DNA of 42,400 bases from a virus. The notes beneath the pieces were generated by a model. The model was not told the DNA's origin, did no database searches, and was given only the letters and a program-made list of their open reading frames with translations. The stretch spans positions 1 to 42,400 of the IMG/VR virus record IMGVR_UViG_3300036045_000029; one strand, given 5' to 3'. Below are positions 4,721-40,552 of this stretch, in pieces. The first letter of the stretch is position 1. Each line of letters begins with the position of its first letter. The position numbers and the translations under genes were made by a program.

Positions 4721-4763
4721 CCCAAAAAACGAACGCCCGGCACCTTTCGATGCCGGGCGTTCG
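4721..4763 (-). terminator. Rho-independent terminator downstream of the capsid gene
   Basis: A perfect 13-bp GC-rich stem (4730-4742 with 4751-4763, 8-base loop) is followed, in the minus direction, by six T residues (read from 4728 to 4723). It lies between the stop of the major capsid gene (4801) and the next leftward gene (start 4676). Confidence 0.9.
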
Positions 4764-6174: not shown

Positions 6175-6211
6175 CGAAGGGCGGCGAGGTGTCTAATCTC
6201 GCCGCCCTTCG
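6175..6211 (-). terminator. Terminator hairpin between scaffold-like and capsid genes
   Basis: A perfect 14-bp stem (6175-6188 with 6198-6211) around a 9-base loop. In the minus direction it is followed by TGTTTC, so the U-tract is poor, but stem strength and position in the only sizeable gap after the scaffold-like gene favour a terminator or RNA-end stabiliser. Confidence 0.75.
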
Positions 6212-9389: not shown

Positions 9390-9433
9390 AAAAAGCGAAG
9401 CCCCCGCGCGGCTGTCCGTTCGCGCGGGGGCTT
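9390..9433 (-). terminator. Rho-independent terminator upstream of the portal gene
   Basis: A 13-bp GC-rich stem (9398-9410 with 9421-9433, 10-base loop) is followed in the minus direction by CGCTTTTTG. It follows the decoration-type gene (stop at 9469) and precedes the portal start at 9381, so it probably attenuates rather than fully ends the operon. Confidence 0.85.
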
Positions 9434-9468
9434 CAAGCTGCGGAGCGAAGGGGGGAATCGCTCAGCGC

Positions 9469-13655: not shown

Positions 13656-13676
13656 CTTTCCTCCCTGTGGCTCCAA

Positions 13677-13703
13677 CCCTAGCCCCCTCTAGGGGGGCTA
13701 GGG
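13677..13703 (-). promoter_or_regulatory. Leader hairpin of the leftward operon
   Basis: An 11-bp perfect stem (13677-13687 with 13693-13703) around the 5-base loop TCTAG. It lies between the candidate promoter and the Shine-Dalgarno of the first leftward gene, 12 bases upstream of that site. It could be an operator dyad, a 5'-stabiliser or an antitermination element. Confidence 0.6.
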
Positions 13704-13729
13704 TGTTGTGATGTTGGTGGTGTGTGGTG

Positions 13730-15583: not shown

Positions 15584-15620
15584 CAGGGTGAGCGGCGAGC
15601 TACCTCGCCGCTTCGCCCTG
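15584..15620 (+). promoter_or_regulatory. Long intergenic hairpin after the DUF932-like gene
   Basis: A stem of about 16 bp with one bulged base and one G-U pair (15584-15599 with 15604-15620), loop CTAC. It begins eight bases after the stop of the upstream gene and is followed at once by leader hairpin B. There is no T-tract, so it may stabilise or process RNA rather than terminate. Confidence 0.6.
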
Positions 15621-15623
15621 CCC

Positions 15624-15642
15624 GCTGGTCATGGTGACCAGC
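15624..15642 (+). promoter_or_regulatory. Leader hairpin, copy B
   Basis: GCTGGTCA-TGG-TGACCAGC: an 8-bp perfect stem with a 3-base loop. Compared with copy A, the sixth pair is T-A instead of G-C, a compensatory change. GCATCGGAGAGAC follows, identical in 13 bases to copy A, ahead of ATG 15664. Confidence 0.7.
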
Positions 15643-15663
15643 GGTGCGGCATCGGAGAGACGA

Positions 15664-15927
15664 ATGACGAATCAGGTTTTTGTGGTGGTGACGTACCGCG
15701 ACGGGCATCAGCACGTCATGCCGCTGTACCCTGCGGAGCTGACGCTCCAGAGCGCGCTCGACCTCGCGCGGCAGGCGGCGGAGGAACACGGCAAGCGGGG
15801 CTCACACGCGGTCGACGGCGACCGCATCGACTTCGCCGCAGTGGAAGCGGCTGACTCGCTGATGGCGGTGAATATCGCCAGCCACGTGGCGAAGCGCCGC
15901 CTCGTTCACGGGAGCTTCACGCTGTGA
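15664..15927 (+). CDS. Small early protein, hypothetical
   Basis: An 87-residue protein (MTNQVFVVVTYRDGHQHVMP...). The start at 15664 follows GGAGAG by four bases and stands after the leader hairpin; an in-frame upstream ATG lies inside that hairpin and is unlikely. Mixed alpha/beta pattern with an N-terminal beta strand pair. Its end overlaps the next gene by four bases. No family recognised. Confidence 0.75.
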   Translation: MTNQVFVVVTYRDGHQHVMPLYPAELTLQSALDLARQAAEEHGKRGSHAVDGDRIDFAAVEAADSLMAVNIASHVAKRRLVHGSFTL

Positions 15928-20335: not shown

Positions 20336-21100
20336 GTGAGCGAGCACTTCGAAGCGTGGGAGCGGTGGCAGAGCAAGCTCGTGCCTCTGGCGCGAGTGAA
20401 CCCTGACCCGCCGCGGTGGATTCTCCCCGGCCTGCTGCTGCCCGGCATGGTGCTGCTGGCCGGTGAAGCGAAGACGCTGAAGACCACGCTCGCGATGTGC
20501 ATGGCTGCGGCACTGGGTGACGGGCACCCAGTGCCGAACTTCCGGTACGGCAAGAAAGCCGTGGTCGCGAAGGAGCGGCGGACCGTCTTCTACATCGCGT
20601 ATGAGCAGTCAGCCGGGCGACTGCGCGTGATGTACGAGAAACGCATCCTCAAGCGACCGCTGAAGCCGCGTGAGACGCACGTGGTAATGGCGAAGACCGC
20701 CCACTACTGGCAGGTTGACGAGCCACAGCGCGGGTGCGACCCGGTGGAGCTGATGCTCACGCTGAAGCCCATCCTGATGGTGGTCGACCCACTGGTGAAC
20801 GCGCACTCTCAGGACGAGAACGACCCGCGAATGATTCGCCCGTTCATCCCGCTGCGCGACGCAGCTCTGGAGGTGGGGAGCTGCTGCCTGCTGGTCCACC
20901 ACATGAACAAGGGCGGCGGCGAGTCTGGTGGTGGACGAGCGTCTGACCGAGCTTCATTCAACCGTGTCCGAGGCACGTCGGCGCTGTGGGGCATGATGGA
21001 CGCGGGACATCTCGTGAACAAGTCTCCGACCGGGGGGCTTTACTACACGTCCGAGTACAAGGACTTCCCGGCGCGGCAGTGGACGTGGAGGAAACCGTGA
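20336..21100 (+). CDS. RepA/AAA_25-type RecA-fold ATPase (replicative helicase-like)
   Basis: A 254-residue protein starting at GTG 20336. P-loop-like GEAKTLKTT at residues 43-51, where the usual second Gly of the Walker A (G-x4-G-K-T) is Leu. Walker B PILMVVDP (145-152), then LLVHHMNKGGG (186-196; the 'HH..K' sensor) and RGTSALWGMMDAG (212-224; the 'rGS.al...aD' motif). This set is typical of hexameric RepA/DnaB-like ATPases called AAA_25 in phages and plasmids, which unwind or load at the origin. No primase is found nearby, so the phage may use the host's. Its stop overlaps the next start. Confidence 0.78.
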   Translation: MSEHFEAWERWQSKLVPLARVNPDPPRWILPGLLLPGMVLLAGEAKTLKTTLAMCMAAALGDGHPVPNFRYGKKAVVAKERRTVFYIAYEQSAGRLRVMYEKRILKRPLKPRETHVVMAKTAHYWQVDEPQRGCDPVELMLTLKPILMVVDPLVNAHSQDENDPRMIRPFIPLRDAALEVGSCCLLVHHMNKGGGESGGGRASDRASFNRVRGTSALWGMMDAGHLVNKSPTGGLYYTSEYKDFPARQWTWRKP

Positions 21101-28249: not shown

Positions 28250-28767
28250 AGCGCTACGACCCGCGCGCGCACGGGGCTCGCTGCGACCTCTGCCCGAGGA
28301 AGATGCAGACGCCCGTACCGCCCGAGGGTCCGAAGCGAGCGATGCTTTGCTGGCTCGGGCAGGACCCCGGCAAGAACGAGGTGAAGCAGCTCCGCCCGTT
28401 CGTCGGAGCGACCGGCACGCGCCTCGCGGGGCTCTGGGAAGCCGGCTGCGAAGCGAACAAGGTTGCGCTCCCACGCTCCCAAATCTGGGTGACGAACAGC
28501 GCGCTCTGCCTGCCGTTAACCAAGTCAGCTTCCGAAGCGAAGCGAGCTGTCGACTGCTGCGCTCCGCGGCTGCGGAAGGAGCTGCTGAACCTGCATCCCA
28601 GCGCCGGCATCCTCGCGATGGGAAAGTGGGCGTTCTACGCGATGACGAACAAGCTGAAGGGCATCGGCAAGTTCAGCGGGTTCTTCAAGGAGCTGAAGAA
28701 GCTGCCGCCTGTACCTGAAGTGAAGGAGAAGAAGTCCAAACCACGCAAGAAGGAGAAGAAGACATGA
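28246..28767 (+). CDS. Family-4-type uracil-DNA glycosylase homologue, C-terminally altered
   Basis: A 173-residue protein starting at GTG 28246. Cys 13, 16, 88 and 104 are arranged like the four Fe-S ligands of family 4 UDGs. GQDPGKNEVKQLRPFVGATG (38-57) matches the catalytic and DNA-facing motif ('GE.PG..E...G.PFVG..G'), and VTNSALCLP (82-90) matches 'TN...C.P'. The usual C-terminal 'HP' motif that contacts the flipped base is missing; instead a Lys-rich tail follows. It may be a weakened glycosylase or a polymerase-associated protein, as seen for other phage UDG-like genes. Coupled to genes on both sides. Confidence 0.78.
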   Translation: MKRYDPRAHGARCDLCPRKMQTPVPPEGPKRAMLCWLGQDPGKNEVKQLRPFVGATGTRLAGLWEAGCEANKVALPRSQIWVTNSALCLPLTKSASEAKRAVDCCAPRLRKELLNLHPSAGILAMGKWAFYAMTNKLKGIGKFSGFFKELKKLPPVPEVKEKKSKPRKKEKKT

Positions 28768-29204
28768 AGGGTCTCGAAGTGCGCGCCGATACCGGCGACT
28801 ACATGAGCGTTCGAGCGGAGATGCTGCTCGACTTCATTGACCGCGAGATGTCGAAGCAGAAGCCCCCGCCCGACGAGGCGACCGTGAAGCGCGCTGCCGA
28901 ATTCGTGGAGCGCCTCAGCTCGCTGCGCACGCTCAGCAAGGACATCCTCCTCCGCCTCGTCGCGAATCCCGAGATGGTCGACGCGCCCGCCAGCGCGCTC
29001 GCCAGCCGCAGCGTGACGCTCGCGGAGTGCCTGCTCGCGGAGCTGGGCAAGGTCGAGAAGGGGGAATTCGTCACGGAGGAGGAGAACATGATGCAGGGGA
29101 CTCTCTTCGCTCTGTTCCGGCAGTGGTACTACAAGAAGCGCGAGGGCGCGGGCTGGGAGCCACCGCCCGAAGCGCTGGCACCGGAAGGAGGGACGCCCGG
29201 ATGA
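28764..29204 (+). CDS. Hypothetical helical protein
   Basis: A 146-residue protein of helices (MLLDFIDREMSKQK, EFVERLSSLRTLSKDILLRL, TLFALFRQWYYKKR) with a Pro-rich C-terminal end. It overlaps the UDG-like stop (ATGA) and the next start (ATGA). Function unknown. Confidence 0.7.
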   Translation: MKGLEVRADTGDYMSVRAEMLLDFIDREMSKQKPPPDEATVKRAAEFVERLSSLRTLSKDILLRLVANPEMVDAPASALASRSVTLAECLLAELGKVEKGEFVTEEENMMQGTLFALFRQWYYKKREGAGWEPPPEALAPEGGTPG

Positions 29205-30074: not shown

Positions 30075-32186
30075 ATGTGGATGATGGCGGTGACACATCC
30101 CGCCGCCTCATTCCGCAACCCGATGACGCTCGGGCCGCTGATGGCGCACGTGGAGAACTTCATCCACTGCGCCGTCAACGGTCCGCCTCCGCGTCCGCGT
30201 CTGGAGCGAAATCCCTCCGCGAAGCGCTTCAAGGAGTTTCTCCGCACCGCACGGCGAGAGAAGCTCGCCATCAACATCGACGTTGAGACCGGACGCTACG
30301 GACACATCGCTGCGTTCGCAGAGCTGAAGATTATCGGCGTCGGCATCGACTACGGAACCGGCTGGGGGCTCTCGTGGGACTACTCGAAGATGCCGTACGC
30401 GGTGCGCCAGCTTCTGAAGAAGGTTCTCCGCAGCCGCAAGTACGTCAAGTGCGGCATGAACCTGGACGGCTACGACCGCCCGGTGCTTCGCCGCTACGGA
30501 TTCGTCCTGCGCGGCAAGGTCGAAGACATCCGCGATGGACGCCGCGCGCTCTCCGCGACCTCCAAGCTCGCGCTCGACCATCAAGCCGCTATCTACATCC
30601 CGGGCTGCCCGCCCTGGAAGACGTTCGTTCGCGAGGACGACGACGGCAACGTGAAGGGCAGCTACTTCGTCGGCAAGAACGTGACGGACGACGACCTCGA
30701 TTACAACGCCGAGGACGCCGTCCGCACCGCGCAGATTCGACGAAGGCACCTCCCGGAGCTACGCGAGGGCGGACCGCGTGTGCAGCGCATCTACCAGCAG
30801 CTTCGGCGACTGAGCCGCGTTGCTGGCGAGATGATGGAGAACGGCTGCCCCTTCGACCGCGGCGAGCAGGTTCGGCTCGACATCCAGCTCAAGAACATCT
30901 TCCGCAGGGAAGCCTCCGCGTTCAAGAAGCTGGTCGAGAAGCGAGCGCCATACTTCCGCTTCGACGGCACCGGCACGAACAAGGAAGACCTCAAGGCGTT
31001 GTTGTTCCGCGAGTGCAGCAAGCCCGGCATCAAGAGCTTCAACCTGGAGGTGCCGCTCTCGGAGAAGTGCTGGACGGACAGCGGGCAGCCCTCCGTCGAC
31101 CGCGACGCGCTGCTCTACCTGTTCGCTCAGCCCGACACGCCCGACGAGGTACGGCACATCCTCCGCAGCTCGTGGAAGGTGAACGCGCCGCTGAAGGTGC
31201 GCTCGACCTACGTCCGTTCGAAGCGCGTGGAAGACGCCATCGGCCCGGACGGGCGCGTGCATCCCTCCATCAACTCGTGCGCCGCAGAGACGTACCGGTG
31301 GACGTGCTCTCGCCCGAACCTGTTCAACCTCAGCAAAGAGGTGCTCGAAGAGGACGAGAACCTCCGCGGCGTGCTCCCCAATCCGCGCGCGCTCTACCAC
31401 GCGCCCCGCGGCTACGTGCTCGTCAGCCGCGACTTCAAGGCGCTGGAGCTGGAGGTGATGGCTGAGTACACGGGTGACGCAGCGCTGCGCCGCATGCTCG
31501 ACCTGGACAAGCCGACTGACCGCAAGTGCAAGGTCACCGGCAAGCCGCTGAAGATGGACGTTCACAGCCAAACGGTGCGGCTGTGGTTCCACAAGCCCGA
31601 GGATGAGAACCCGCCGAGCCAGATTCGCGTGCAGGCGAAGAAGGTGCGGTTCAGCTCCGGCTACGCAGCAGGCTGCGAACAGGTTTACATGAAGGTTCTG
31701 GAGCAAATCCAGGACGCAGTCTGGGAAGAAATCCACGCGATGTGGACGATGTTCCAGGAGACTCACACTGGCATCACGCAGCACTGGGAAGCTTCCATGC
31801 AGGAAGCAACTCAGTACGGGTACAACGAAGCGCCCATCATGGGCTACCGGCGAACGTACCCGCCCGGCAGTCAAATCAAGCCGACTGAAACATCGAACTA
31901 CGCTATTCAAGCTGGCGCTGCTGCCATCGCGAACTGCACGCTCGTGGGGTTCGGAGATGAAGAGAGCTACAAGCGTTCGTTGCACTACCGGTTGAGGAAG
32001 GAATTCCCCGACGCCTACATGTTCATGCACGTGTACGACTCGTTTGATGTCGCGTGCCCGGAGAAAGATGCAGCCGGTGTCAACGCTCTGGTAGAAGAAT
32101 GCATGCGTGGCCCCTGGGAGATTGGCTCCCGACCGAAGCTCTACGCGAGCGACGGGAAAATCGGCTACCGATGGAGCGAAGTGTGA
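30075..32186 (+). CDS. Family A DNA polymerase with 3'-5' exonuclease
   Basis: A 703-residue replicative polymerase. The exonuclease domain has Exo I NIDVET (Asp 69, Glu 71), Exo II GMNLDGYDRP (around Asp 131/134) and Exo III DYNAEDA (Tyr 210, Asp 214). The polymerase domain has motif A SRDFKALELE (Asp 453, Glu 458), motif B RVQAKKVRFSSGY (Arg 518, Lys 522, Phe 526, Tyr 530) and motif C HVYDSFDVA with Asp 655. Motif C differs from the usual 'HDE': His is Tyr and Glu is Ser, so the second acidic residue is missing or moved to Asp 658. GGAGGG precedes ATG 30075. Other features look intact and full-length for a phage PolA. Confidence 0.93.
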   Translation: MWMMAVTHPAASFRNPMTLGPLMAHVENFIHCAVNGPPPRPRLERNPSAKRFKEFLRTARREKLAINIDVETGRYGHIAAFAELKIIGVGIDYGTGWGLSWDYSKMPYAVRQLLKKVLRSRKYVKCGMNLDGYDRPVLRRYGFVLRGKVEDIRDGRRALSATSKLALDHQAAIYIPGCPPWKTFVREDDDGNVKGSYFVGKNVTDDDLDYNAEDAVRTAQIRRRHLPELREGGPRVQRIYQQLRRLSRVAGEMMENGCPFDRGEQVRLDIQLKNIFRREASAFKKLVEKRAPYFRFDGTGTNKEDLKALLFRECSKPGIKSFNLEVPLSEKCWTDSGQPSVDRDALLYLFAQPDTPDEVRHILRSSWKVNAPLKVRSTYVRSKRVEDAIGPDGRVHPSINSCAAETYRWTCSRPNLFNLSKEVLEEDENLRGVLPNPRALYHAPRGYVLVSRDFKALELEVMAEYTGDAALRRMLDLDKPTDRKCKVTGKPLKMDVHSQTVRLWFHKPEDENPPSQIRVQAKKVRFSSGYAAGCEQVYMKVLEQIQDAVWEEIHAMWTMFQETHTGITQHWEASMQEATQYGYNEAPIMGYRRTYPPGSQIKPTETSNYAIQAGAAAIANCTLVGFGDEESYKRSLHYRLRKEFPDAYMFMHVYDSFDVACPEKDAAGVNALVEECMRGPWEIGSRPKLYASDGKIGYRWSEV

Positions 32187-32572
32187 GCCACAAGCAAGTG
32201 ATGGTGAAGTACAAGGGCGGCAGCGAGATTCGCACGGCGCTGCCGGTGGAGCTGCTGGAGAGCGGCGACCTGCTGAAGATTTCCGGCGACAAGTACATCA
32301 AGCTGGTCGGCGCGGACGCGCACGGCACGCTGATGTTCGAGGAGGTCGACGCGCCCGACGCGAAGACGGTGACCGAGAAGGAGGTCAAGGTCATGCGCGA
32401 CGAGAAGGAGGTCGTCGTCGGCTCCGCGGTCGAGCGCCTCTTCGCGCAGACGAAGTTCCCCGAGCCCGGTCCGTCGAAGCCGCTCGTCGGGGACGACGGG
32501 CAGCCGCTCCCGCCCCCGGAGGGCCCGGAGGCGTTGAAGGCGAGCGGCAAGAACATGCGCCGCGTGCCGTAG
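32183..32572 (+). CDS. Hypothetical protein after the polymerase
   Basis: A 129-residue protein starting at GTG 32183 with GGAG six bases upstream, overlapping the polymerase stop. Beta-rich N-terminal half (QVMVKYKGGSEIRTALPVEL, LKISGDKYIKLVGADAHGTL) and a Pro-rich end. It closes the replication block; a leader hairpin follows. Function unknown. Confidence 0.72.
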   Translation: MSHKQVMVKYKGGSEIRTALPVELLESGDLLKISGDKYIKLVGADAHGTLMFEEVDAPDAKTVTEKEVKVMRDEKEVVVGSAVERLFAQTKFPEPGPSKPLVGDDGQPLPPPEGPEALKASGKNMRRVP

Positions 32573-32589
32573 CCGTTCGGTAACACCTG

Positions 32590-32634
32590 TGGGTAGAGTG
32601 TCCTCCGTTAACTCTTAGCGGAGGACACTCCCCA
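32590..32634 (+). promoter_or_regulatory. Strong hairpin burying the ribosome-binding site of the next gene
   Basis: A perfect 12-bp stem (32596-32607 with 32619-32630, 11-base loop), extended by TGGG/CCCA around a 2-base bulge to about 16 bp. The right arm contains GGAGG, the only Shine-Dalgarno before ATG 32635. It has no T-tract. It probably represses translation until opened, or terminates upstream transcription partially. Confidence 0.7.
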
Positions 32635-33054
32635 ATGAAGCGCCCCTCAAAGTTCACCGTCTTGTTCGCAGCCTGCACGCTCATGGCGTGCGGCGCGTTC
32701 GTTCACTCCGTCGTCACCGCTCGTGCGTGGGCGGTCGACAAGTATCAGGCGACGCCCGGAAAGTTCCGCTGCGTGCAGGTCGCCGTGCAGACGACCGCAA
32801 CCACGGTCATCTCCGGCAGTTCCGAACGCAACGCGTGGGTCATCCAGAACCTCGGAGTGAATCCGCTGTACTGCGACGGCACCGCCAGCGTCACCTCGGA
32901 CACCGGCATTCAGGTGCCGGCGAACGGCGGCATTCTCACCGCCGACATGTTCGGCGGACCAAACTCTGCCAGCGATACCATCACCTGCGTGACGGTCTCC
33001 GCGAACCAGCTCGGGACCGGCACGGCGAACACCCGAAAGTGTATGGTGTACTAA
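32635..33054 (+). CDS. Secreted small structural-like protein
   Basis: A 139-residue protein with a signal sequence of about 30 residues (basic start, then VLFAACTLMACGAFVHSVVT), with a possible lipobox-like LMAC. The mature part is beta-rich (CVQVAVQTTATTVISGSSER, GTASVTSDTGIQVPANGG). It lies behind a ribosome-binding-site hairpin and before a larger fibre-like lipoprotein. It could coat the virion or be exported to the envelope; no family is recognised. Confidence 0.72.
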   Translation: MKRPSKFTVLFAACTLMACGAFVHSVVTARAWAVDKYQATPGKFRCVQVAVQTTATTVISGSSERNAWVIQNLGVNPLYCDGTASVTSDTGIQVPANGGILTADMFGGPNSASDTITCVTVSANQLGTGTANTRKCMVY

Positions 33055-33056
33055 TC

Positions 33057-34070
33057 ATGCGCGCCTTCACCCTTTCTCTCATCCTGCTGGTCGCGTGCGC
33101 TCACGCGCCAGCTCCGCAGCTCGACACTCACGCGCTCGACATTCAGATGTCTCGCGAGATGCCTCGCGAGGAGGAGCCGATTCCGAGCGGCGTCCGTAGC
33201 TGGCCGAACAAGATGGCGAACAAGATGATGCTCGCCAGCAGCGGCGTCGACCTGCGTGGGGCTGCCAGCGCCTCCAACACTCCAACGTTCACCGGTACAG
33301 CCGCGACAGTGGTCGTAGCTGTGAGCCCTCAGACCGCGTGCTACGGCTTCGGCGGCGCAGTTGTTGGTGAGTCGTGTATCAACTCCGGCTCGTTTACTCT
33401 CTTCGGAGATGCATCTTTTCTGCGCATCTACTACGGCAACCAAGTTCGACTCACAAACAGCATCGCAAGCGGTGCGTGGATTACGCCTTACGCGTTCGAG
33501 ACCTCCGCCGCGGTGACCGCGTTCACGATGACCGACGTGAACGGCACGTCCCGCGTTGCGTGGGGTAACGGCGTCTACATCAACGCGACTGGCGGCACAC
33601 TCAACTCCAGCGCTGGCATCACCGCAACTGCCGGCGGGTTCACTGCGCGCAATGCGACTGCTCAAGCGCAAGTTGGCACTGCCAGCAATGCCTTCTGGAT
33701 AGCGGACGCGGCGGGTCAGTACGAGAGCACTGCGTTCATTGCGTACCAAGAGCTGCCGACCGTAGTCAGCATCGCGAACAATGCGGTGGGCGCGTCTCCA
33801 GCTACGTACACGAGCACATTCTCTGAGTCCGACGCTTCCGTGAGCATCACGTGCAACGACCCGGACGGCTGCAACGTGACGCTGACCGAGACCAGCATTC
33901 TCGATGGACAGCGCGTCTGCTACGTGAACGTGAGCGCGAACACGGTCAACTTTGCCGACACCGCGGGTGTCAGCGAGATTGCCGGCGCGTTCGCTGCTGG
34001 GCAGTGGGACAGCATCTGCCTTCAGTACCGTACAGACCGCTGGGTCGAGCTGTCTCGCAGCAACAACTAA
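33057..34070 (+). CDS. Fibre-like lipoprotein
   Basis: A 337-residue protein. Its N-terminus is a signal with a lipobox, LILLVACAHAP (Cys 14). The mature part is Ser/Thr/Ala/Gly-rich with many short strands (NSSAGITATAGGFTARNATA and similar), like trimeric fibre or spike stems, ending in a small globular part with WVELSRSNN. ATG 33057 follows the previous stop by two bases with a poor Shine-Dalgarno, so coupling is likely. A lipid-anchored fibre-like protein is unusual: a surface-displayed adhesin-like or exclusion role is as possible as a tail role. Confidence 0.72.
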   Translation: MRAFTLSLILLVACAHAPAPQLDTHALDIQMSREMPREEEPIPSGVRSWPNKMANKMMLASSGVDLRGAASASNTPTFTGTAATVVVAVSPQTACYGFGGAVVGESCINSGSFTLFGDASFLRIYYGNQVRLTNSIASGAWITPYAFETSAAVTAFTMTDVNGTSRVAWGNGVYINATGGTLNSSAGITATAGGFTARNATAQAQVGTASNAFWIADAAGQYESTAFIAYQELPTVVSIANNAVGASPATYTSTFSESDASVSITCNDPDGCNVTLTETSILDGQRVCYVNVSANTVNFADTAGVSEIAGAFAAGQWDSICLQYRTDRWVELSRSNN

Positions 34071-34080
34071 GGAGCACCAC

Positions 34081-34470
34081 ATGAACCGCAACGCTCTCAT
34101 CGCAGCTCTCGCAGTCGGCGCAGTCATCGGCGCTGCTGCCGTGAAGACCATCACCATCGGTGACACCCTCGCCGCTCCGTTCAACGCGCGGCGCGACACA
34201 CTCGCAGACGCCGGCATCGTTACCGCGTTCTGTGTGAACCGGGTCGAGACCCCGCGCCCGGATGGAGGCACGTTCGTCAGCGCAGTGTTCAGCGGGACGA
34301 TGGTCGTTCCTGAAGTCCGCACGCTCCCAGATGGAGGCACGCGGACGGTCTTCTCAACGCTCAACAGCGAGCCGTGCGACCTCGTCGGCGCGAACCTCAC
34401 CGCTGCCGTGAACTTCGCCAACGGGCCGGTCGCTGCGTGCATCCGCGCCTCGAACGACCTGGAGCAGTAA
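34081..34470 (+). CDS. Small secreted or membrane-anchored protein
   Basis: A 129-residue protein with a hydrophobic N-terminus (ALIAALAVGAVIGAAAV), signal peptide or anchor, and a beta-like mature part with three Cys. Two PDGG-x(4)-F segments about 25 residues apart (RPDGGTFVSAVF and LPDGGTRTVF) form a short internal repeat. AAGGAG precedes ATG 34081. No family is recognised. Confidence 0.7.
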   Translation: MNRNALIAALAVGAVIGAAAVKTITIGDTLAAPFNARRDTLADAGIVTAFCVNRVETPRPDGGTFVSAVFSGTMVVPEVRTLPDGGTRTVFSTLNSEPCDLVGANLTAAVNFANGPVAACIRASNDLEQ

Positions 34471-34473
34471 GCC

Positions 34474-34809
34474 GTGGATGCAAGCGTCGCGGAGTTGATG
34501 CACTGGGTTCCGACGCCGCTTCTCGCACTCGGGTTCTGGGCGCTGATGAAGAAGGCGTTCCAGGACCACGAGGAGAAGCAGCGCTTGCTGATAGAGAAGT
34601 TCGAGAAGGCGATGGAGAAGCAAAGTCAGCATGACCTCGCGCTCGCGCTGATGAAGCAGATTCAAGACGCGCAGACGCGAGAGCTTCTCCAGCTCCGCGA
34701 CCAGAAGCACGCCCTCACAAATCACTTCATGGAGCTGCAAACGAAGGTTCTCGTCCGCATCCTCGATGAAGGCAGCGGACCGAAGCACGACCCGCGACGC
34801 CCTGAATAG
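34474..34809 (+). CDS. Membrane protein with coiled coil (holin or i-spanin candidate)
   Basis: A 111-residue protein from GTG 34474 (GGAG nine bases upstream). One membrane helix (WVPTPLLALGFWALMKKAF, about 11-29) is followed by a long charged coiled coil. One N-terminal helix plus a periplasmic or cytoplasmic coiled coil is the general plan of i-spanins and some holin regulators, and the gene lies in the late/lysis-side cluster, but the family is not recognised. Confidence 0.65.
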   Translation: MDASVAELMHWVPTPLLALGFWALMKKAFQDHEEKQRLLIEKFEKAMEKQSQHDLALALMKQIQDAQTRELLQLRDQKHALTNHFMELQTKVLVRILDEGSGPKHDPRRPE

Positions 34810-34831
34810 CTGGCGAGCGCGCTGCCTGCGT

Positions 34832-34874
34832 GGTACATCCTCCGCCGCAGTTCTCACCCCACGGAGGACGTACC
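34832..34874 (+). promoter_or_regulatory. Second hairpin burying a ribosome-binding site
   Basis: A 13-position stem with one A-C mismatch (34832-34844 with 34862-34874, 17-base loop). The right arm holds GGAGG and ends right before ATG 34875. The inner TCCTCCG/CGGAGGA half is identical to that of the hairpin before 32635. Confidence 0.7.
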
Positions 34875-35180
34875 ATGTCGAAGAAGACGAAGAAGGCAGC
34901 GGCTGACGGCGAGATGTACGAGGTCATAAAGGGAGCGCCGCCCGCGCGCACCAGCAACGTCGCGTCGAAGTACGACGCGAAGCTGAAGCAGCTCCAGGAG
35001 GACAAGGGCAACTGGGTGCGGCTCTACAAGGCCCCCGAGGGCGCGACGAAGAAGGCCGCGCACGCCCGCCGCCAGAGCCTGATGCGCGCTGTCGAGCGCG
35101 CTGGCGTGAAGGACAAGATTTCGGCACAGGTCCGCCGCGACGAGGACGGGTCGCAGGGTCTGTGGGCAATCTTCGGCTGA
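34875..35180 (+). CDS. Small basic protein, hypothetical
   Basis: A 101-residue basic protein starting at ATG 34875 directly after the hairpin (an upstream in-frame ATG at 34830 lies before the hairpin and is unlikely). It has a pattern 'YDAKLKQLQEDKGNWVRLY...KAAHARRQSLMRAVERAGVK..ISAQVRRDEDG..LWAIFG' resembling small phage proteins of unknown role found next to structural genes. It is followed by a terminator. DNA binding is possible from charge only. Confidence 0.72.
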   Translation: MSKKTKKAAADGEMYEVIKGAPPARTSNVASKYDAKLKQLQEDKGNWVRLYKAPEGATKKAAHARRQSLMRAVERAGVKDKISAQVRRDEDGSQGLWAIFG

Positions 35181-35206
35181 ACCGGGCGAGGACCCAGCCA
35201 GAAGCG

Positions 35207-35240
35207 AAGGGCGCGGAGCAGTTGGCCGCGCCCTTTGTGT
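35207..35240 (+). terminator. Terminator after the small basic gene
   Basis: A 10-bp GC-rich perfect stem (35207-35216 with 35226-35235, 9-base loop) followed by TGTGTTGC after two T of the stem. The T-tract is weak, but placement between genes at 35180 and 35261 fits a terminator. Confidence 0.65.
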
Positions 35241-35260
35241 TGCTGTAGGGTCTCCTCACC

Positions 35261-35872
35261 ATGCGCCACTTCCTCATCGCCGCAGTGCTCGTTTCAGCTC
35301 TCCCTGCCGCTGCTCACCGTGATGAAGCTCCGTGCCTCCAAGCCGACGACGGTACGCTCGTCTGCCCCGAGATGCAGATGACCGCTCCGGTCGCACTCGC
35401 CGCCGACGAGGACATCGCGCTCGCGCCCGCCGACACGGCAGCCGCGGTGAAGGAAGAAGCGCAGACGGAGAGCGCGTTCCTGAAGTTCCTCGGCGCGCTG
35501 CTCACGCTGCTGATGCCGGTCATCGCGCTGCTCGTGAAGAACTGGCGGGACGTGATGCTCGCGAAGAAGCAGGAGAGCCACCTCAACATGGGCATCGGCA
35601 TCGCGCTGCAACTGTTCGCCGCATTCCTCACGGAAGCACGGGCGAAGCTCGAACCGAAGCTCCGCGAGGCGCTGGCGGACGGGGTGGTCACCCCTGCCGA
35701 ACGTAAGGAGCTGGTCGACGTGCTCGTTCAGATGGCGCTGACCGGCTTGCCGTCTGCGGTGATGGACGCGCTGAACACCGCGTTCGGTGACTCGCTGAAG
35801 ACGTGGCTCGCGCATCAGGCAACCGAGACCGTGGACGCTGCCCTCGCGAAGGCCAGCGGCTCCCCTCAGTAG
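35261..35872 (+). CDS. Secreted/membrane protein, holin-like candidate
   Basis: A 203-residue protein. Signal peptide at the N-terminus (FLIAAVLVSALPAAA), a Cys pair (CLQADDGTLVC), then one strong membrane helix (LKFLGALLTLLMPVIALLVK, about 74-93), a charged helix and a helical domain ending the protein. The second half resembles LLH-type holins in layout. AGGG is the best upstream site; CTCCTC right before ATG 35261 can pair with GAGGACCC further upstream. Lysis function is an inference from membrane features and position. Confidence 0.65.
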   Translation: MRHFLIAAVLVSALPAAAHRDEAPCLQADDGTLVCPEMQMTAPVALAADEDIALAPADTAAAVKEEAQTESAFLKFLGALLTLLMPVIALLVKNWRDVMLAKKQESHLNMGIGIALQLFAAFLTEARAKLEPKLREALADGVVTPAERKELVDVLVQMALTGLPSAVMDALNTAFGDSLKTWLAHQATETVDAALAKASGSPQ

Positions 35873-39100: not shown

Positions 39101-40552
39101 CTCGCGCACCTTCCCCAGCTTCTCGTTCACCGAAGGCTCGCCGGCTCGGCTGCCGACGCCCAGCTCACGCAGCAGCCGCGCGAGCTTCTCCGCAGGAGCC
39201 TCCGGCCCCACGTGCGTCACCGGCTCCGCGTACGACGGCGCACGCCCCTCGGGCACGAGCTGCGCCTTCCGCAGCGAGCGCGAGAGGAAGGGGCGGTCGA
39301 CCACGGTCGGCTCTCCAGCCAACGGGCGGCGACTGCTCGCCGTCACCTCCGGGTCGAGCAGCGGGTCCGTGCGCGGCTCCGCGCCGAGAAGCTCCGCGAG
39401 CTGCTGCCGCACGCTCGGGTTCGTCTCCAGCCGGTCGGGCGGGAGTCCAGGGCGCGGGCGCGAGGTGCGCGTCACCGGCTCCTCCACGTCAGGGAAGGTC
39501 CGCGGCTCCTGCCCCAGCACCTCAGCGCGGAGCTGCTGGTCACCCGGGTTCGTGACGATGCGGTCGCGCGAGAGCCCCGGTCGCGGGTTGCTCGCACGCG
39601 TCGGCACTTCAGGCGGAGGACCACCACGACCCGGCATCGTCGGCTGCTCACGCAGGAGCTGCATCAGCGGCGGCTCGTTGTGGTACGGACTCACTCGCGT
39701 GCCATCCACGCGCGCAGAAGGCTCCGGGTTCTCCACGTTCGCGTAGTCGACCGAGGTCGGCGGCTCTCCACCACGCGCGTTCGCCGCAGCCTGCTCACGC
39801 GCCTGCGCGTCGAGCGGACCCTCCGGCACGGTCTTCGGCTCCGGTGCCAGCTCCTTCATCCCGAGCCGTGCGAGCAGCCGCTTCGTTGCAGGACCGAGCA
39901 GCGCCTTCGTTGTCGCCGAGCCCTTCTCGATTCCCTTCCCGAGCGCGCCTGCGACGAGAGCGTTCACGCCGCCGCCGACGAGAGCACCCGCGACTTCCTC
40001 CTGCCCCGGCAGGAACCCCAGCATGCGCTCCTTCGGTGCCGGTGCGGAGTGCGCGCCGTGCAGCATGCCGACGAGCCCGCTCACCAGCATCTGCTCCTTC
40101 ACTTTCGTGGGGAAGGGAGAGAGCACACCCGCTGCGAGCGCAGTCTTCGGATGCCGCGCACGCGCGTCGTTGAATTCGTCATCGACCATCTTCCCGACCT
40201 CGCGCCGCTGCTGCTCCATCTGCTGCGGCGAGTCAGACTTCATCAACGGTGGCGGACGAAACCCGATGTCGGTCGCGCTGAGCGCAGCCATGCCGGCGCT
40301 CTGCCAATCCGCCATCCCGGGCTTCTCGCCGCGAGTCGGCACCACCATCGCCTTCAGCGAGCCCGGCAGCTCCTTCAGAGCTTCGAGCGCCATGTCTCCA
40401 AGACCCAACTGCTCCTGCTTCGGCTTCAGCTTCGAGCGTTCAGCGAAGATGGGCTGAAGCTTCTGCGCCTCGGCGGGCGAGAGGTCGACCTTCTCCCCGC
40501 GAGAGAGACGGTTGAACTTGTCGGCTTCTTCTGGCGTGAGGTCCCAGGGCAT
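36173..40552 (-). CDS. 1459-residue internal/ejection-type virion protein
   Basis: The largest gene. It is helix-rich with several hydrophobic patches: about 180-215 Gly/Ala-rich (LVGGGVNALVAGALG), then in the C-terminal third VTWARNIISNGLYL and WMAAPMVAAYMARQLYG. Between residues 260 and 420 lie Pro-rich degenerate repeats. The motif around 'TSPVTWARNIISN' recurs in very large phage proteins that enter the cell with the DNA. No polymerase or transglycosylase motif was recognised by eye, so the biochemical activity is unknown. It ends the leftward unit, 11 bases from the converging rightward unit. It is most likely a DNA-ejection or pilot protein. Confidence 0.75.
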   Translation of the reverse strand: MPWDLTPEEADKFNRLSRGEKVDLSPAEAQKLQPIFAERSKLKPKQEQLGLGDMALEALKELPGSLKAMVVPTRGEKPGMADWQSAGMAALSATDIGFRPPPLMKSDSPQQMEQQRREVGKMVDDEFNDARARHPKTALAAGVLSPFPTKVKEQMLVSGLVGMLHGAHSAPAPKERMLGFLPGQEEVAGALVGGGVNALVAGALGKGIEKGSATTKALLGPATKRLLARLGMKELAPEPKTVPEGPLDAQAREQAAANARGGEPPTSVDYANVENPEPSARVDGTRVSPYHNEPPLMQLLREQPTMPGRGGPPPEVPTRASNPRPGLSRDRIVTNPGDQQLRAEVLGQEPRTFPDVEEPVTRTSRPRPGLPPDRLETNPSVRQQLAELLGAEPRTDPLLDPEVTASSRRPLAGEPTVVDRPFLSRSLRKAQLVPEGRAPSYAEPVTHVGPEAPAEKLARLLRELGVGSRAGEPSVNEKLGKVRELNAERPTVVDDPREADYLRQSGFYEAAAAADRGDPSAMMKWLNENPQGAKTAKEIGLVLAGEHRKFNASRELTKPLRTEVPRDVQGTAAASPKAAERSLGGAPPEPSVDANIAWLSGEDELEKTATKYVPRDSLLPRSQQNPEMTWVASHRLKPEIQGGSGEPPRPAATQQSGPPVSAPLQPTDLDEMFHALAAQSQKLLAADTGLRARFLKQFSLPEFRGDELLGQAVRSVNASRAIGDFQMQRLYPALQRVIEKLPSVDRATVQKVITQLRDRKATVADLNKLPAEFRALFDQMHREQQAQLVELAKGGYFGPQELATISQNLKKGLLHLHRSYQAFYARRSWKPPEDAIVRAAKFIAESMGMDPVQANARVRAVLKTAAEGEGFQNVQQMLGAFRDAGLVKARTLPPPLHALLGVVNDPAFVVAETASQMSSMYHLMMRTRALLAPDLEGKVWAQQWVPGMDERPLWNEQMSPAQNKRLFGELAGKFVHPALRQSMLDAPAPLVENFARDFAHKVTGWFATAKVLTSPVTWARNIISNGLYLTASGVPVWRQPVLMAKAFRSILAGQKRLSASLAQGHEWLQMALEDGAVRPGRGTDLGGSEARAIAENVLRSKPDGLMGFWDSAMRMMQKGQLKLGKTYELFDSAARLAAYMHHVEAGRQRLGLSPQQARSHASHIVNRYFATGAGAAPIFRELSRSSLGLAPFIGWHVDNLRVAKNILADSMKGDLGPLMRTAAWMAAPMVAAYMARQLYGITDSDVAAGERALKGSWRDRQGLHDWLPVRGKDGRLVYAVSFDGLNPFALFLRGAPQMSIPQRVAASIVQGMVQSGSMEPWVNDQLASLGVTPQEYEPPLLPGQEGWKAASGVAQFMEPALMRQFRTVARKAQLDLGQPLRPTEEPQGLGEALLTTFSPIGIEKVGERTQRGAQKQLRGERAGLLDARKRVRGINDPDERSRVLEAIPERMKQLRDRFK
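39341..39610 (-). repeat. Two 43-residue tandem repeats within the large virion protein
   Basis: Coding repeats at residues about 315-357 and 358-400: PRPGLSRDRIVTNPG...QEPRTFPD versus PRPGLPPDRLETNPS...AEPRTDPL, with the same spacing of 43 residues. More degenerate units flank them on both sides. The repeat is clear at protein level and diverged at DNA level. Confidence 0.75.

Follow-up and report, generated by a model that had tools for sequence, protein, structure and literature searches.

The start of a small gene lying just behind the replication genes of an environmental phage appears to be sealed in its own mRNA. The Shine-Dalgarno (SD) sequence is held in a strong hairpin, H1, and a second gene in the same cluster begins behind a similar hairpin, H2. 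The somewhat favored explanation, based on modeled folding, is that H1 (and probably H2) prevents translation of the gene behind it from early read-through mRNA, a seal to be opened by a shorter transcript. Long mRNA running on from the replication genes would carry the downstream SD locked in the hairpin, presumably leaving the gene untranslated; a shorter transcript lacking the left arm would open it. Such a seal would delay synthesis of a secreted late-side protein whose gene happens to close an early operon. Phage T4 already provides the device; the new element is its likely occurrence in a lineage unrelated to T4, where it goes with operon placement.

The DNA analysed (the window) is a complete IMG/VR virus record, IMGVR_UViG_3300036045_000029, of 42,400 bases from an environmental sample. 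The nearest annotated phage for its polymerase, portal, terminase, and coat proteins is MW202477 ("Podoviridae sp.", Manatee Spring), at about 43–51% amino acid identity; the IMG/VR contig G001 is much closer (terminase, 74%; polymerase, 73%; coat, 72%). A 26-kb contig, L127 (IMGVR_UViG_3300021517_000018), encodes a terminase protein identical to that of the window, and no match to the H1–H2 region was found in it.

Replication genes in the window run rightward (about 14.3–32.6 kb) and virion genes leftward. The DNA polymerase A gene (30075–32186, plus strand), upstream of H1, ends the series of well-conserved genes in the replication block. Both hairpins fall within a cluster encoding secreted- or membrane-looking proteins (32635–35872) at the end of the rightward block. 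H1 precedes the gene at 32635–33054 (plus strand), whose 139-residue product has a signal-peptide-like amino terminus and matches no family; H2 precedes the gene at 34875–35180 (plus strand), which encodes a basic protein of 101 residues, relatives of which were not found. An earlier note on this DNA described the two as unlinked late genes. In fact they stand on one strand, with 2.2 kb between them, where the replication-gene block ends, and so are not clearly unlinked; "late" is inferred. The arrangement is consistent with read-through: the genes upstream are replication genes on the same strand, and no terminator-like site on the plus strand passed the scan between 30000 and 36500.

H1 (32590–32634) is built on a perfect 12-bp core, GAGTGTCCTCCG (32596–32607) paired with CGGAGGACACTC (32619–32630), and reaches about 20 pairs with a bulge. 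The left (5') strand, 32590–32611, comprises an outer TGGG (32590–32593), the TA bulge, the core, and an inner TTAA (32608–32611); the right (3') strand, 32615–32634, comprises an inner TTAG, the core, and an outer CCCA that extends to the ATG. TTAA pairs with TTAG inward, and TGGG with CCCA outward across the bulge. The SD, GGAGG (32620–32624, plus strand), lies 10 nt before the ATG at 32635 and has a mean unpaired probability of 8e-5. The RNA folds with a minimum free energy (MFE) of −32.5 kcal/mol (53 nt; z −7.2), a stability reached by none of 200 dinucleotide shuffles. When the SD and downstream sequence were held fixed and the upstream sequence was shuffled, the SD was buried as completely in 4 of 1500 trials. 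H1 is also a palindrome in the DNA, detected on both strands. Sealing of the H1 gene, as modeled, is well supported and may be taken as highly probable.

H2 (34831–34875) has a stem of 13–14 positions with one A-C mismatch: TGGTACATCCTCCG (34831–34844) pairs with CGGAGGACGTACCA (34862–34875, extending to the A of the ATG) around a 17-nt loop, with A34836 opposite C34869. Its GGAGG (34863–34867, plus strand), 7 nt before the ATG at 34875, has a mean unpaired probability of 9e-5. The 56-nt fold has an MFE of −25.1 (z −5.2), unmatched in 200 dinucleotide shuffles; in a wider 80-nt frame z is only −1.8. On predicted folding H2 is likely the same device as H1. That H1 is real and H2 an unrelated chance hairpin is the less likely view, at perhaps a one-in-three level of belief: neither relatives nor a promoter box is found for H2, and 60 of 1500 shuffles attain its MFE. 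Against this, burial of the SD is as complete as in H1 (matched by 2 of 1500 trials of the same upstream shuffling), and the outer GGTAC arm pairs beyond the mismatch up to the AUG. Both hairpins were thus found where the earlier note had placed them, burying GGAGG before 32635 and 34875, with no T-tract at either, and both stand out from dinucleotide shuffles (H2 only in the tight frame).

How unusual is this burial? Among the 40 window genes that have an SD, only those behind H1 and H2 have one that is essentially always paired, and in ten relatives about 4 of some 246 other SD-bearing starts are similarly buried. The inner halves that the note found identical are indeed so: the window contains TCCTCCG-N(3–25)-CGGAGGA at just two places, H1 and H2, against 0 expected. 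Five of the seven shared bases pair with GGAGG, however, so that the similarity arises mostly from both arms covering the SD. A scan of viral contigs for TCCTCCG..CGGAGGA..ATG returned at least 119 contigs, by rough estimate no more than chance would give, and was therefore not used.

The window contains six perfect stems of 12 bp or longer, where 0.13 would be expected; of the others, at least two are ordinary minus-strand terminators with a T-tract. Strong minus-strand stems stand between the virion genes at 4730–4763, 6175–6211, and 9397–9434; clear T-tracts mark those at 4730 and 9397 as terminators, and TGTTTCT follows the stem at 6175. The leftward operon has a strong 12-bp stem ahead of its first gene (13676–13704, minus strand; CCCTAGCCCCC/GGGGGCTAGGG), and G001 has a differently spelled counterpart just above L125:14148 (GGGAGGCCC/GGGCCTCCC). 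The SD is not buried here; this is possibly a conserved 5' leader hairpin. Two strong hairpins without a T-tract (15591–15612 and 15622–15644) occupy the gap before the gene at 15664, and a perfect 12-bp stem (20508–20536) lies within the coding sequence of the gene at 20336.

Related phages were compared at the corresponding late-side cluster. An SD-burying hairpin is present at the cluster's first secreted-protein gene in all four phages in which the cluster follows a same-strand DNA polymerase: the window phage, G001, G006, and G008. In G001, the gene at L004:10785, which follows the polymerase and one small gene, has a TTG start behind GTGCCTCTGA-(8 nt)-TCGGAGGCAC; its SD is the least accessible in that genome (unpaired probability 4e-4). 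The secreted-protein gene of G006 (L143:4063) lies behind a perfect 13-bp stem, TGGCATCCTCCAG/CTGGAGGATGCCA, with an MFE of −26.4. Its homologue in G008 (L144, complement 13366–12602) has the stem GACAGCCTCC/GGAGGCTGTT, and an SD whose unpaired probability, 1e-3, is the sole value below 0.01 in the G008 genome. The stems are 10 bp long in both G001 and G008. G006 has a second gene with a buried GGAGG (L146:9722, minus strand; unpaired probability 0.0013), in a different structure.

Outside GGAGG the arms differ from phage to phage, yet they remain paired. In an alignment of ten positions anchored on GGAGG, comprising the four H1-type copies plus H2, 48 of 50 cells are paired (96%), and all five non-SD pairs have changed on both sides; registers slid out of place are 47–57% paired. 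The covariation score is 0.62 versus 0.23 in shuffles, an exact figure that flatters the case, since anchoring was by hand and copies were recognised by their pairing (those in G006 and G008 were noticed by scanning a few genes at the expected place). The note had named loss of pairing in close relatives as grounds for abandoning the idea; H1 pairing is instead kept, with compensatory changes, in three relatives. Its proposal of a translational switch accordingly fares well for H1, where burial of the SD also goes far beyond chance.

Orthology of the sealed genes rests on position and signal peptide, because the proteins are not detectably homologous between the window and G001, nor between either of these and G006/G008. 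Single-protein scans of viral contigs (polymerase, 34875 protein, and 32635 protein) found no relatives, and tblastn with the two small proteins (32635 and 34875) found no match in phages or in genome contigs. A DNA search for the H1–H2 region in the G002 and G003 contigs found nothing, which is weak evidence because the same search missed distant copies. An apparently sealed "gene" at 39529 in MW202637 was set aside, since a terminator lies there ahead of an ORF that is probably spurious.

A natural control comes from MW202477, in which the homologue of the G006/G008 protein (28693–29121, minus strand) lies within the late structural operon. Here there is no hairpin (SD unpaired probability, 0.15; MFE, −10.8). 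In this one case, then, the seal accompanies placement behind replication genes, as a seal against read-through early mRNA predicts. Elsewhere in the late operon of the same phage (L003), the start of the 29142–33767 gene lies directly behind GTCGGAGTACAACTCCGAC (33768–33800, minus strand), a hairpin with GGAG, and is likewise buried.

How might the seal be opened? The base of the H1 left arm overlaps TAGAGT (32594–32599, plus strand), a candidate −10 box of the TANNNT type. TANNNT serves as a −10 box in high-GC bacteria, about 12 bp before leaderless starts (PMC3160421). G001 has an identical TAGAGTG at the same place (L004:10752–10758), also overlapping the left arm; the flanks differ, and TAGA is conserved although it lies outside the paired region. 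TANNNT boxes also align between the window and G001 before the portal gene (TACGGT/TACCGT) and the 36173 gene (TACCCT/TACCCT), in both cases exactly 7 nt before the start, and before the coat gene (TAGGCT/TAATCT). The same spacing predicts transcript starts at 32607 for H1 and L004:10765 for G001, about 8 nt after TAGAGT and in each phage at the last base of the left arm, so that a transcript from this box would have its GGAGG freed. For H1, RNA beginning at the predicted base raises SD accessibility from 1e-4 to 0.20 (about 2000-fold). In the predicted short transcript of G001 the SD remains paired, with sequence downstream of it, and its accessibility is only 0.009. At the required place no TANNNT box is present at H2 (which reads TACATC) or in G006, and G008 has only a weak TATGAC; neither a −35 element nor a full σ70 promoter was found. 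Opening by an overlapping promoter is nonetheless the best mechanism on offer, and close to an even call. The note would have counted transcripts starting inside the hairpin against the idea; on this analysis they are what would open a T4-type switch.

In both the window and G001, the starts of the portal gene and of the gene for a 1459-residue protein follow a TANNNT box by 7 nt and have no clear SD (window 9372 and 40552, minus strand; L125:10058 and L004:18995). These mRNAs are therefore likely leaderless, which hints at a host of high GC content in which leaderless starts are used. Similar boxes precede the genes at window 35261 (TAGGGT, 9 nt) and L004:14160 (TAGGCT, 7 nt).

In T4, long early transcripts that include the e (lysozyme), soc, 49, and I-TevI genes keep the SD or AUG of these genes sequestered, and short, translatable mRNA arises from a late promoter encoded in the 5' strand (PMC3014915, PMC2988022). 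H1 resembles these in several respects: its SD lies in a 5' hairpin, buried as judged from predicted pairing, shuffles, and compensatory change; its gene is downstream of earlier genes; pairing is predicted in related phages; and, at H1 and in G001, the DNA of the 5' strand contains a promoter-like box. It differs in belonging to an unrelated phage group, in the box itself (TANNNT, as TAGAGT, rather than TATAAATA), which occurs in only two of the phages, and in the sealed genes, which encode secreted-looking proteins without assigned function. Direct reading of 32560–32634 finds no TATAAATA, so H1 may work like the T4-lineage element but is not one. With leaderless genes of high-GC bacteria (PMC3160421) the window shares TANNNT about 13 nt before the portal (TACGGT) and 36173 (TACCCT) starts, kept in G001; the H1 box, unlike theirs, stands about 40 nt before the ATG and would give a short leader that bears an SD.

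The seal itself could instead serve a single transcript on which a trans-acting factor (phage protein, small RNA, or metabolite) opens the SD during infection. This would accommodate H2 and G006, which have no promoter box in the left arm, and the sealing on which it depends is well supported. However, no sequence recurs in the loops or outer arms, either from phage to phage or from H1 to H2, which leaves no common binding site in view; and the window has no match at the Rfam gathering threshold to a known riboswitch or cis-regulatory RNA family. A trans-acting factor is thus unlikely, and the note's suggestion of a shared factor or small RNA receives no support, the common inner part being largely the complement of GGAGG.

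Cleavage of the stem by RNase III or a similar enzyme, freeing the SD or stabilising the mRNA, would suit H1, which is long (about 20 pairs) and intergenic; the leaders of T7 or lambda N invite the comparison. The stems of G001, G008, and G006 are short for RNase III, which makes processing improbable indeed. Least probable are terminators or DNA operators that overlap the SD by chance. The hairpins do lie in intergenic gaps, and H1 is a palindrome, but the absence of a T-tract after the stem, in contrast to the clear terminators of this phage (4730–4763 and 9397–9434), led to rejection of an intrinsic terminator; loops of 3 to 17 nt are unsuited to the fixed spacing of an operator; and GGAGG stands at SD distance in every conserved copy.

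The preferred explanation, in which early read-through mRNA is sealed and the gene is opened by way of a shorter transcript, leads to a tentative generalization, held at somewhat less than even confidence: podovirus-like phages of one lineage may use a two-transcript switch to control the gene that opens their late-side cluster, with the −10 box set in the DNA of the sealing strand, arms that vary provided they pair, and no seal where the gene sits in a late operon. If so, a distant phage group would have evolved T4-style hiding of a late gene in early mRNA on its own, using promoter boxes of the host type. The seal would then track operon placement, providing a testable rule: a gene at the end of an early operon is sealed, but not when it lies in a late operon.
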